From positions 1-28,847 of the IMG/VR virus record IMGVR_UViG_3300025413_000097: DNA of 28,847 nucleotides. One strand, 5' to 3'. Under the pieces are notes generated by a model, which ran no database searches, was not told the DNA's origin, and worked only from the letters and a program-made list of their open reading frames with translations. A program made the translations under genes and the position numbers. This document shows, piece by piece, positions 1,139-22,161 of the stretch (position 1 is the stretch's first letter; the number at the start of each line of letters is the position of its first letter). This stretch comes from a virus.

Positions 1139-1551
1139 GCCGCCCCTCCTGCTACAATTCCAGCACCGATAGAGATAAACCAGTCAGAGGCTAGTGCAGG
1201 AGGATAGAAGGCAAGGAGAATTGAAGAAAACCTCTGAATGCTAGCGAATACAATGAACCCAATGCAACTAGAGCAGATCAATAGCAATAGGTGGAAATGA
1301 TGACGAACATCTGACAACTCTTTACGAGTGATGTCTAGTTGGTTTTCTGCTTCATTCAACTTTGCCGTCTGTGCGTTTACTGCATTTTGAACTACTCCTA
1401 GTTCTTGCTTTGCGGCAGACGCTTCATCTTGAGCTTGGTGGACTAGTTGACGCTGATGTTCAATCGTCTTGATAATGTCATTTTTAGTTATCGTTGTAGC
1501 TTGAACACCGACTGCCATGACAAATAAAATTGCTAATGCTATTCTTTTCAT
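1114..1551 (-). CDS. Coiled-coil membrane protein, possible spanin component
   Basis: The 145-residue product starts with a signal-like segment (MKRIALAILFVMAVGVQA, residues 1-18). An Ala/Gln/Glu-rich coiled coil follows (about 28-85), then two hydrophobic segments (about 87-106 and 118-140). It overlaps the upstream lipoprotein gene by ATGA. Inner-membrane spanins combine a membrane anchor with a periplasmic coiled coil and are encoded next to a small lipoprotein, which is the arrangement here. However, classical i-spanins have one N-terminal TM and no C-terminal TM pair. The spanin assignment is therefore inference; a simple membrane-anchored lysis accessory protein is the alternative. Confidence 0.55.
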   Translation of the reverse strand: MKRIALAILFVMAVGVQATTITKNDIIKTIEHQRQLVHQAQDEASAAKQELGVVQNAVNAQTAKLNEAENQLDITRKELSDVRHHFHLLLLICSSCIGFIVFASIQRFSSILLAFYPPALASDWFISIGAGIVAGGAAWSLLGHL

Positions 1552-1739
1552 TTCTGTGTTTTAAGCCATTGTTCGATCACGACTGACTTGCTGTCAACCG
1601 CAGAAAGATTTCCTTGAACCGCAGAAATGTTGTCTACTGCTGGAGCTACTGAAATTGAAGATGGGGCGTGCGTACATCCTCCTAGAATCATTAGTATTGT
1701 TCCTAGAAATGGAAGTAATGCTTCCCAAGTCTTTTTCAT
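1548..1739 (-). CDS. Small lipoprotein, o-spanin candidate
   Basis: The 63-residue protein has a hydrophobic N-terminal signal ending in a lipobox (LGGC, Cys22). After processing, a mature peptide of about 42 residues would remain, rich in Ser, Val and Ala. Lipobox proteins of this size in phage lysis cassettes are usually outer-membrane spanins, and the next gene downstream encodes a coiled-coil membrane protein that could be its partner. The ATG overlaps the stop of the preceding gene (ATGA). An outer-membrane lipoprotein would imply a Gram-negative host. The mature part is not Pro-rich as in lambda Rz1, so family membership is unproven. Confidence 0.6.
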   Translation of the reverse strand: MKKTWEALLPFLGTILMILGGCTHAPSSISVAPAVDNISAVQGNLSAVDSKSVVIEQWLKTQK

Positions 1740-19201: not shown

Positions 19202-19513
19202 TTAGTTGATGTCCTCTGGTTTCACTTCTCGCTTCATGGCGTTGAGTAGATCGCAATGGCGTTGCGCTGTAGTTTCGTCATCAAATGCCGCTTCCATAGG
19301 CCAATCGGCAGTTGTTCCAAGGTTCTCATCCATAAAGTCGATATATTCTCGCATGACTTTGCGGAGCCTCTCGACCTCGTTGGTTTTTTGGGCGAGTTCT
19401 CGCTCTAGCTGGCGGGAGGTTTCTACTGGCACTACAAAGGCCTTTAGGCCCATTGCCTCGCAAGCCTCATCCGTCCTAGGCGTTTGTGTGGTGTCGGTGG
19501 TTGATGTATTCAT
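19202..19513 (-). CDS. Coiled-coil protein A (TPRTDE start) of a four-gene cluster
   Basis: I start this 103-residue protein at ATG 19513 (MNTSTTDTTQTPRTDEACEA). TPRTD followed by ARxLERELAxxxxEVERLR is a common layout of small phage proteins found in accessory regions of many phages. Here it reads TPRTDEAC, then SRQLERELAQKTNEVERLRK, then an acidic part and C-terminal TTAQRHCDLLNAMKRE. It is the first gene after the structured RNA and pyrimidine-rich leader. Function is unknown. Confidence 0.65.
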   Translation of the reverse strand: MNTSTTDTTQTPRTDEACEAMGLKAFVVPVETSRQLERELAQKTNEVERLRKVMREYIDFMDENLGTTADWPMEAAFDDETTAQRHCDLLNAMKREVKPEDIN

Positions 19514-19557
19514 GAAGCTCAATTAAAAACCCAAGCTGGTAAAAAGAAAAGAAAAAA
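19514..19557 (-). repeat. Pyrimidine-rich leader block shared with 17121-17160
   Basis: The minus strand reads TCTTTTCTTTTTA, then ACCAGCTTGGGT and TTTTTAATT before the ATG. The parallel block before 17116 has the identical 13-base pyrimidine string, then AACGCTGGGT and AATT. The match suggests that the two operons have a copied or commonly recognised 5' leader. Confidence 0.55.
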
Positions 19558-19646
19558 ATCGGAGGAGGTTCAGGTCGCTATCTCCTCTGGTTCGCAACAA
19601 TTGGTTGACATCCCCCAGACTTGACCCCTCAATGCCTCCTCCGATT
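19549..19646 (-). terminator. Long-stem terminator-like RNA structure
   Basis: AATCGGAGGAGG (19557-19568) and CCTCCTCCGATT (19635-19646) form a perfect 12-pair stem enclosing 66 bases. On the minus strand it runs straight into TTTTTTTCTTTTC. Inside, TCTGG/CCAGA and CAAC/GTTG can form further helices. It works as a terminator on the minus strand, and the large folded interior suggests a small RNA or an attenuator before the gene at 19513. Confidence 0.65.
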
Positions 19647-19720
19647 ATGATGATTCAACCTAATAAACAGCATCCACTAGGGAACGCCGTTACAGGGTCA
19701 ATCAACCCTAGCAGATACAA

Positions 19721-19748
19721 ATCCTATTCATTTATCAAAAAGTGTCAA
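19721..19748 (-). promoter_or_regulatory. Candidate promoter for the structured RNA
   Basis: A perfect minus-strand TTGACA (complement of 19743-19748) is followed after 16 bases by TAGGAT (complement of 19721-19726, four of six to TATAAT). It lies just downstream of the tRNA gene. A transcript starting near 19714 would end at the long-stem terminator after about 165 bases. It would include AGGGT-TGATTG-ACCCT and an outer CTAGGG/CCCTAG pair. Confidence 0.5.
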
Positions 19749-19789: not shown

Positions 19790-19863
19790 TGGCTACCCCT
19801 CATGGACTTGAACCATGAATTTCTCCTCCAAAGGGAGATGTGTTCCCATTACACCAAAGGGTA
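19790..19863 (-). tRNA. tRNA-Gln (anticodon UUG), CCA encoded
   Basis: The 74-base gene folds as a full cloverleaf. Acceptor TACCCTT pairs with AGGGGTA, D stem GTGT/ACAC, anticodon stem TCTCC/GGAGA with loop CTTTGGA, and T stem CATGG/CCATG with loop TTCAAGT. The discriminator is G and the CCA end is encoded. Anticodon TTG reads CAA (Gln). The weak U1-A72 pair and G73 agree with known GlnRS identity signals. It lies after the packaging genes and probably supplies CAA decoding during phage growth. Confidence 0.93.
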
Positions 19864-20262: not shown

Positions 20263-22161
20263 CTAGTCAGACATATCAACAAACTCCATCTTGTCAACAA
20301 GGCTCTGCAATTCACGCTGGCGCGAGTTGCCCTCCGGCTTCGTCTCGGTCATCGTAGCCACATTCCCACCCCGCTGGCGCATCAGGAACACCAACATCGA
20401 CAGCGAATCCAGTTCGTCCGGCGACTTGCTCCTCGTCCGCTTGCAATACTCACCCTTGCTCTCCACCCTCACCAGACCCTTGCCCTTCTGCTTATACCTG
20501 CGCGCCGTTGCCTGCCGGATCAGCGTCTCATTCCTAAAGCTAGGACTGATCTTCAGGTACTCAAACTCCAGATACTTTGCCAACCCAAAGATCAACTCGG
20601 TCACGACGCCGTTGTACAACTCCGACGCCTTCTGACTATCGTCGCCCAGAATGTGAGTGTCAGTCGCCGCCCATGAGTAATTCACTCCCATTACCTCGCG
20701 CCCAAATAACGAACACAACGAGTCGTGAATGCCCGCGCCGTTGCCAGTACGATCCACACACAGCCAGTTGGGACTAATCTTCATCGTCTTCGCAAACTTG
20801 ATGATCGCCTGCGTCTGCTCCAACGTCGCCTTTTTTGGGAAGGGTATCTGCGAGTCCAGTTGCAATACAACCTTCGGAGCCTTGAACGGGATAAACTGAC
20901 CGCTCTGCGGTGTCCACCCATCAGACAGCCCAAAACGCCCGAAAGAACACATGACTTGGTCATTACCCTCCAGTGCCAAGTCGAACGCCGCCAGAGCCAC
21001 CACAGGCCCAGTAAATCGTACCACACCAATGGCGTTGTCCATCATGGCAGGCGTGATGATCCCCATCGCCTGTCCTTCCTCTGGGAACCACCCGCGGGCC
21101 ATCGTCATCGCCTCCGCAGTCCGGCCTCGCGAGATGTACGACATGAATCCCTGATACGTCTGTAAGCCTGCGTAGACAATCCGTTTCTCGATCACATTCT
21201 CACAGCGCGCCGCGTCCAGCCTCAACACATGGTAACCTTCCCGCGACTCCCACTCAAAGTCATCCTCGCAGTCCACCGATCCCCAGCCATCCTTCGGCTC
21301 GCATCTCTGCGCGAAGTCACTCGTCCTATCCCGCGGGTTCGACGCACCAAAGATTTTGATGTGACCCTTGTAGCTGTCAGAATCCGCCGTAGACAGGATG
21401 TTGTTGATACCTTCCCAAACGCCCACAGGGACTTCCTCGGCCTCGTCCAACACCACATGGGTGCGCGACAGACGCCCCCACTTGTGATGCTCCTTGCCTG
21501 ACCGCGGTATCGGATGGAATCCACGCAGGGTTCCATGACCGCTCTCGCCCTTGGGGATCGCCACCAGATGGATCCCCTGCTTGCTGTCGTTGGTCACCTG
21601 AATGCTCGTCGCCTTCTCCTCCTGATCGGTCACAGGCTTCACCAGCGCAGTCCGATGGAAGGTCTTGATGTTCGCAAAGATGTTCCTCTCCGCGTGTTCC
21701 TTCGTCAGAGAGATCACCTTGATGCAGGTGTACTCTGGGTCACGCCACCAGTCCAAATAGAACCATGCCGCCGCGCCGAATGACTTGCCCATAGCTCCGG
21801 CTCCCTGAACCATCAACTTGTCACCCGCAAATAGACACCGCCATGTGTCACGAGATGACCGCGGCCTCCAGTCGTACACATCCGGCCCCCATAGGATCGT
21901 CGCCGCCGCCTCAAACTGATCGAAGTCCAACAGGTGCTGGACATACTGCCGGACGATATGCTCCGACATCTTGGCGTCTATCTCACTGACAGCCACCGCG
22001 TTCCTAGTCGTGTTCATCAGGATGTACTGCGCCGCGTACATCATGCCCATCTCCTCATCCCTGTCGGCCTCCTGCCGGATCTTCAGCGCGTGTCCATGAT
22101 AGACCTTGATTGAGTGAGGTGGAGTTAGTCGATATCCCGTGTCTTGTTTTTCTTCATTCAT
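20263..22161 (-). CDS. terL: Terminase large subunit
   Basis: The 632-residue protein has both terminase domains. ATPase: MVQGAGAMGKSFGAA (Walker A, G120-S127), THVVLDEAEEVP (Walker B, DE at 239-240) and KIFGASNP (motif III, about 269-276). RNase H-like nuclease: D394 in ALAAFDLALEGND, D470 in NWLCVDRTGNG, and D582/D585 in KSPDELDSLS. It cuts concatemeric DNA and pumps it through the portal. The N-terminal 110 residues precede the ATPase and may bind the small subunit. High GC (about 63% in one sampled line) contrasts with the rest. The first of two staggered ATGs (22161) is the in-frame start. Confidence 0.95.
   Translation of the reverse strand: MNEEKQDTGYRLTPPHSIKVYHGHALKIRQEADRDEEMGMMYAAQYILMNTTRNAVAVSEIDAKMSEHIVRQYVQHLLDFDQFEAAATILWGPDVYDWRPRSSRDTWRCLFAGDKLMVQGAGAMGKSFGAAAWFYLDWWRDPEYTCIKVISLTKEHAERNIFANIKTFHRTALVKPVTDQEEKATSIQVTNDSKQGIHLVAIPKGESGHGTLRGFHPIPRSGKEHHKWGRLSRTHVVLDEAEEVPVGVWEGINNILSTADSDSYKGHIKIFGASNPRDRTSDFAQRCEPKDGWGSVDCEDDFEWESREGYHVLRLDAARCENVIEKRIVYAGLQTYQGFMSYISRGRTAEAMTMARGWFPEEGQAMGIITPAMMDNAIGVVRFTGPVVALAAFDLALEGNDQVMCSFGRFGLSDGWTPQSGQFIPFKAPKVVLQLDSQIPFPKKATLEQTQAIIKFAKTMKISPNWLCVDRTGNGAGIHDSLCSLFGREVMGVNYSWAATDTHILGDDSQKASELYNGVVTELIFGLAKYLEFEYLKISPSFRNETLIRQATARRYKQKGKGLVRVESKGEYCKRTRSKSPDELDSLSMLVFLMRQRGGNVATMTETKPEGNSRQRELQSLVDKMEFVDMSD

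Follow-up and report, generated by a model that had tools for sequence, protein, structure and literature searches.

A previously uncatalogued family of structured RNAs next to a tRNA gene in an uncultivated freshwater phage and in its relatives

Phage tRNA clusters carry stable RNAs that are not tRNAs, RNA C and RNA D of T4 being examples. GOLLD and ROOL (PMC12286853) are likewise untranslated stable RNAs found in or near phage tRNA clusters. The abiF RNA has been reported from bacteria and phages, e.g. cyanophage S-CREM1 (PMC9964418), and in C. difficile it binds AbiF directly and neutralises this toxin, also in trans (PMC12373285). We analysed an uncultivated freshwater phage represented by an IMG/VR record of 28,847 bases (the window, by which we mean the whole stretch of DNA), in which an RNA gene adjoins a tRNA gene. 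In a scan of the window against Rfam 15 the tRNA(-Gln) alone reaches the gathering score, and we found no published description of the neighbouring RNA in the open-access literature. This RNA family is previously uncatalogued and absent from Rfam 15. The member in the window is probably an independent phage-encoded structured ncRNA of approximately 165-170 nt with its own promoter and terminator.

All features of the window discussed here lie on the minus strand. Downstream of tRNA-Gln (TTG; 19790..19863) is a sigma-70-like promoter (19721..19748), the TTGACA/TAGGAT pair singled out by the earlier note, which consists of TTGACA at 19748-19743, a 16-nt spacer and TAGGAT at 19726-19721. With a 10/12 match it is the joint best in the 9 kb scanned, where the total of 13 matches against 9.8 expected by chance is statistically not exceptional; the same TTGACA-16-TAGGAT arrangement is found upstream of the RNA in relatives, and little else in the region is as well conserved. 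Transcription would be expected to start near 19714, the point from which the predicted length is counted, and to enter a variable 5′ module (19647..19716) folding as an extended hairpin (z -1.96). This module is present in near-identical contigs only, and in other phages unrelated structured modules occupy its place.

The 5′ module is followed by the conserved structured domain (19553..19648), which is matched by both covariance models (R1 and R2) and shows covariation. It is closed by stem P1, whose arms AATCGGAGGAGG (19635..19646) and CCTCCTCCGATT (19557..19568) form 12 pairs that covary and enclose exactly 66 nt; the U-tract after it (19541..19558; T7CT4CT5, ending at 19541) would make P1 an intrinsic terminator. 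Read on this strand, the 12-pair stem, 66-base interior and U-tract are precisely as first described, and the element goes well beyond a chance arrangement. Inside P1 lie an invariant CA bulge (19633..19634, between P1 and the H-D pair) and the 5′ side of the core, UUGAGG (19627..19632), in which H (19632) pairs with D (19569), followed by a U-A pair, a G-G mismatch and AGG paired with CCU. The 3′ side, AGCGACCUGAA (19569..19579), consists of unpaired AGCGA and then CCU, G, A and D, and is invariant or nearly so. Between the two is an apical domain (19580..19626) of one G and a stem-loop, highly variable in sequence among phages; the type seen in the window is common to L193, L206 and L077. 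A promoter and a terminator of its own, both recognised from sequence only, are what one would expect of an independent ncRNA.

The minimum-energy fold of the window RNA is the same as the fold obtained by comparison. A 95-nt domain gives a z of -2.77, with 2/200 shuffles equally good, and the 101-nt and 186-nt versions give -1.85 and -1.28, respectively. Taken alone the folding energy is only moderate and would not carry conviction; the real evidence is comparative.

Relatives were collected through homologues of the large terminase, which gave 139 viral-contig stretches, of which 80 loci were kept. We assign this function to the window ORF at 20263-22161 (632 aa, minus strand) from its position, its length and a nearby match to a terminase small subunit, and regard it as the probable large terminase; the protein is encoded by more than 100 viral-contig stretches and has no match in Pfam, PHROG or named phages. 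BLAST of the RNA region against the terminase-homologue contigs revealed conservation of the promoter, the P1 arms and two short blocks, the rest between them being variable. A pattern made from the two blocks and run on viral contigs recovered many more copies, 57 of them distinct once seven chance matches had been removed, and nearly all on viral contigs. The exact stem pattern CGGAGGAGG...CCTCCTCCG, which occurs in 43 viral-contig stretches, was also tried as a family marker and was dropped, the stem sequence not being the conserved part. The earlier note had called for a comparative search with a covariance model. R1, a model from whose construction the window was left out, gives the window 64.6 bits (E 6e-14) and separates true copies (≥34 bits) from chance pattern matches (≤20 bits). 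Among 64 matches from a pattern scan of genome contigs only that at locus L266 is strong (77.7 bits with R2), the next best reaching 23.6 bits, and BLAST against named phages returned matches to the tRNA region only. The genome-scale model searches were run under strict filters, and the phage contigs are uncultivated and mostly fragments.

The consensus reads, in its 5′ half, P1 (7-10 pairs of variable sequence), the CA bulge, H-U-G-A-G-G-G and the variable stem-loop, and in its 3′ half A-G-C-G-A-C-C-U-G-A-D and P1′. H and D are complementary in 56/57 copies (U-A in 31, A-U in 22, C-G in 3). In an alignment of 22 copies two-sided changes occur at 10 pairs, and RNAalifold recovers the same fold unaided. 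An alignment of 64 copies, one diverged host copy included, shows two-sided changes at 13/19 pairs and a covariation score of 0.485 versus 0.143 after shuffling and 0.06-0.105 in slid controls; because this larger alignment was fitted to the model, the 22 copies are the cleaner test of covariation. In copies L304 and L318 of Verrucomicrobiota the near-invariant U-A pair is replaced by C-G. It had also been suggested that an SD-like GGAGGAGG hidden in the stem might pair with another RNA. This finds no support among the relatives, which have GGGGGAGG, GGGCGGGG, CTAGGAGG, GATGGAGG or GTCGGTGG in the same place, mostly with compensation in the 3′ arm, so that only the pairing is kept. Judged from the alignments, the fold is preserved across dozens of related phages and the stem sequence is not, which marks a real RNA family, and the compensatory base changes supporting one fold are those of an independent structured ncRNA.

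At two positions G-U outnumbers every other pair type (30/63 and 44/64), which points to selection on the RNA of this strand. The same observation, as G-T pairs, speaks against a single-stranded DNA recombination hairpin of the integron attC kind, a reading invited by the constant bulged stem, the variable tip and the location on the 3′ side of exchangeable cassettes. The promoters placed 4-5 nt ahead of the stem in five copies, the T-run that mostly comes after the stem and the usual count of a single copy per phage also speak against such a hairpin, which we regard as scarcely credible. A kink-turn, proposed from CAUUGA/CUGA, was considered separately and is rejected on the H-D covariation. 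With H, the third base of the loop, paired to D in 56/57 copies, what is left is a CA bulge of 2 nt and a G-G mismatch, where a kink-turn would require a bulge of 3 nt and then tandem sheared G-A pairs.

Comparison of the copies shows, then, one fold with invariant internal loops (CA bulge, G-G mismatch and AGCGA). Protein-bound RNAs typically combine a helix that is free to diverge with fixed bases in the internal loops and an exchangeable tip, and from this combination we infer a protein partner, which the RNA probably binds via its invariant internal loops.

The RNA was found in 32/40 records searched whole, with one match reported in each, and tandem copies occur in L012, L027 and L169. 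It usually stands at the end of a mosaic array whose other structured RNAs are tRNAs, abiF RNA and at least 10 recurrent unnamed modules. The modules upstream of the 57 copies occur in 25 different orders, according to a census by short regular expressions that recognises modules by short conserved words only; a tRNA is present in 20/57 extracts. In the 600 nt upstream of the RNA in L209, L211, L024, L027, L061 and L224 the modules have variable closing stems and conserved cores, for instance CTTCGGTGAACCACTGC..., GTGATCGAAAGG...GGACG and GGAATCATTGCTGG...ATGATTCC, and Rfam reported none of these further modules in the loci scanned.

The sequence downstream is equally varied. ParB-like genes follow the RNA in L024, L025, L026 and L212, a homologue of ORF-15736 in L061 and unrelated genes in L167; elsewhere there are tRNA-like elements or no recognised gene. 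The tRNA-like elements of L210, L219 and L215 (e.g. GCTGGATCTTCTAACGCAAAAG...GGGTTCAAATCCCACTCCAAC) are either rejected by ARAGORN or called without a proper anticodon. In the window the RNA is followed by a coiled-coil gene (19202..19513; ATG at 19513, without SD), and the earlier note had left the choice between an ncRNA and a riboswitch or attenuator governing that operon by read-through. The terminator lies 40-45 nt before the ATG, and a homologue of the same gene directly follows the RNA in L009 and L121, as would suit a cis-acting leader. The link is inconsistent in the other relatives: what follows the RNA changes from phage to phage, as listed above, the RNA also sits inside Verrucomicrobiota tRNA operons, and the covariation holds P1 closed, with no alternative anti-terminator pairing seen. 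Since the downstream genes differ there is no fixed cis-regulatory link to the coiled-coil gene, and we consider the leader improbable. What stands of the earlier proposal is the ncRNA, favoured by the covariation, the varied downstream genes and promoters that seem to serve the hairpin alone. In these five relatives (L183, on the plus strand, L187, L193, L199 and L201) only 4-5 nt separate the end of the -10 box from P1, and the hairpin alone would therefore be the transcript. Comparison thus shows both independence from the downstream gene and a swappable apical stem-loop and upstream modules.

The position at the end of the arrays bears on a further reading, in which the element has no trans function and is mainly an elaborate terminator and a cap that stabilises the 3′ ends of tRNA/ncRNA array transcripts. 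In most arrays it is the final module, and a T-run of at least four follows the stem in 43/57 copies. An ordinary terminator would have no need of the invariant CAHUGAGGG/AGCGACCUGAD loops, however, and to judge from promoter position five copies are transcribed alone. The GC-rich relatives L182, L203 and L208 keep the core and lack the U-run, so that termination is not universal. We hold the cap to be possible and somewhat doubtful.

Copies outside the viral contigs bear on the hosts. The contig that carries the strong copy, L266, is phage-like and was binned into a Spartobacteria MAG. Diverged copies were found after tRNA-Lys in genome G119, in G221 with tRNA-Lys on one side and, on the other, a gene that by eye resembles tRNA-Cys, before tRNA-Cys in G127, and amid phage-like sequence in G798 and G833; two of the Verrucomicrobiota copies run straight into tRNA-Cys without a terminator. 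In L317 (G798 C56, approximately 1520-1590, minus strand) the RNA core overlaps the end of an ORF for a coiled-coil-like protein. A Bacteroidota control gave 0/395 genomes, a weak negative given the strict filters and a search without a positive control in that phylum. The occurrence of diverged copies in a few Verrucomicrobiota genomes suggests that the phage hosts are probably members of this phylum.

Two of these genomes raise the question of a bacterial Y RNA binding Ro60/Rsr (TROVE). G119 and G221 are among only 4/241 genomes with TROVE, their copies lie 0.6-2.4 kb from the TROVE gene, and the architecture, with paired ends, a variable apex and a U tail, is Y-like. The TROVE-bearing genomes have separate YrlA-like RNAs near TROVE, though (model matches in G221, G230 and G257, by eye in G119), whose terminal stem GGCGAAUGC/CUUGUCGCC is unlike the core of the new RNA. 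G127, G798 and G833 carry the RNA without TROVE, TROVE was detected in 0/39 phage records, and none of the Rfam Y families matches the window; the YrlA model RF02553, which finds YrlA next to TROVE, gives no hit there with E allowed up to 10. A Y RNA is accordingly very improbable, and we read the proximity to TROVE as a sign that the two RNA types both reside in tRNA islands. The tRNA arrays at L304:1698-4110 (G221) and L296:9250-10250 (G119) lie upstream of TROVE and RtcB-like genes and contain several YrlA-like elements with the common sequence GRCAGTGARG...ACTTCG.

The abiF RNA (RF03085) was detected in 6/39 phage records (28-44 bits). Five of these have it immediately 5′ of the new RNA and in the same orientation (L025:5915-5951(+), L024:6150-6186, L009, L022 and L120). 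The Abi_2 toxin (PF07751) was found in no phage record, these being mostly fragments whose missing parts could carry the toxin. That phages in which Abi_2 could not be detected carry abiF RNA suggests that counter-defence decoys are among the array members. Extended to the new RNA, this becomes a decoy or antitoxin-type RNA neutralising a host RNA-dependent defence protein, the array then being a set of exchangeable RNA counter-defences, with which the interchangeable modules would agree. Against this, the host copies lie in tRNA operons and have no recognised defence or toxin gene next to them, and the array of the window itself is without abiF RNA. We rate the decoy as tentative, giving it the same weight as the protective or terminating role, and as the most interesting open possibility for this RNA. 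Rather less likely is a general scheme in which the exchangeable small RNAs of Verrucomicrobiota phage arrays each disarm a different host defence, the window RNA, as the constant member, inhibiting a widespread RNA-dependent defence or RNA-processing protein.

Under the preferred reading as an independent ncRNA, the sigma-70-type promoter at 19748-19721 would start an RNA made of the variable 5′ module and then the constant 3′ domain (19648-19553). P1 and the U-tract would end transcription before the coiled-coil gene and leave a stable hairpin as the 3′ end, the invariant loops presumably binding a host or phage protein. The RNA may act in trans as part of a stable-RNA cargo that the phage carries with tRNAs and abiF-type RNAs. 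This well-supported family is missing from Rfam and belongs to a freshwater phage lineage whose large terminase itself lacks a Pfam or PHROG match. A covariance model for it is at hand, its invariant loops lend themselves to mutation, and its context is testable. The surrounding arrays, including an abiF antitoxin RNA that appears without its toxin, offer a direct route to RNA counter-defences and their protein targets.

Set beside known systems, the new RNA is akin to T4 RNA C and D and to GOLLD/ROOL in being an untranslated stable RNA in or near phage tRNA clusters; the Rfam scan, with tRNA as its only match in the window, would set it apart from them. With YrlA and other bacterial Y RNAs (RF02553) it shares paired 5′ and 3′ ends, a variable apical domain and, in two genomes, a place near tRNA arrays and TROVE. 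It differs in its invariant nucleotides, lacks both a tRNA-like domain and an Rfam match, and occurs in phages that have no TROVE. Intrinsic terminators also have a GC-rich stem and then a U-tract, whereas the new RNA is approximately 65-105 nt long, has invariant internal loops, evolves by compensatory changes and does not always keep the U-run. The abiF RNA resembles it as a small structured RNA of the same phage arrays, directly upstream in five phages, but is a 37-nt motif, AAGCCUC/GCUCAAACC, with neither sequence nor fold in common with the family described here.
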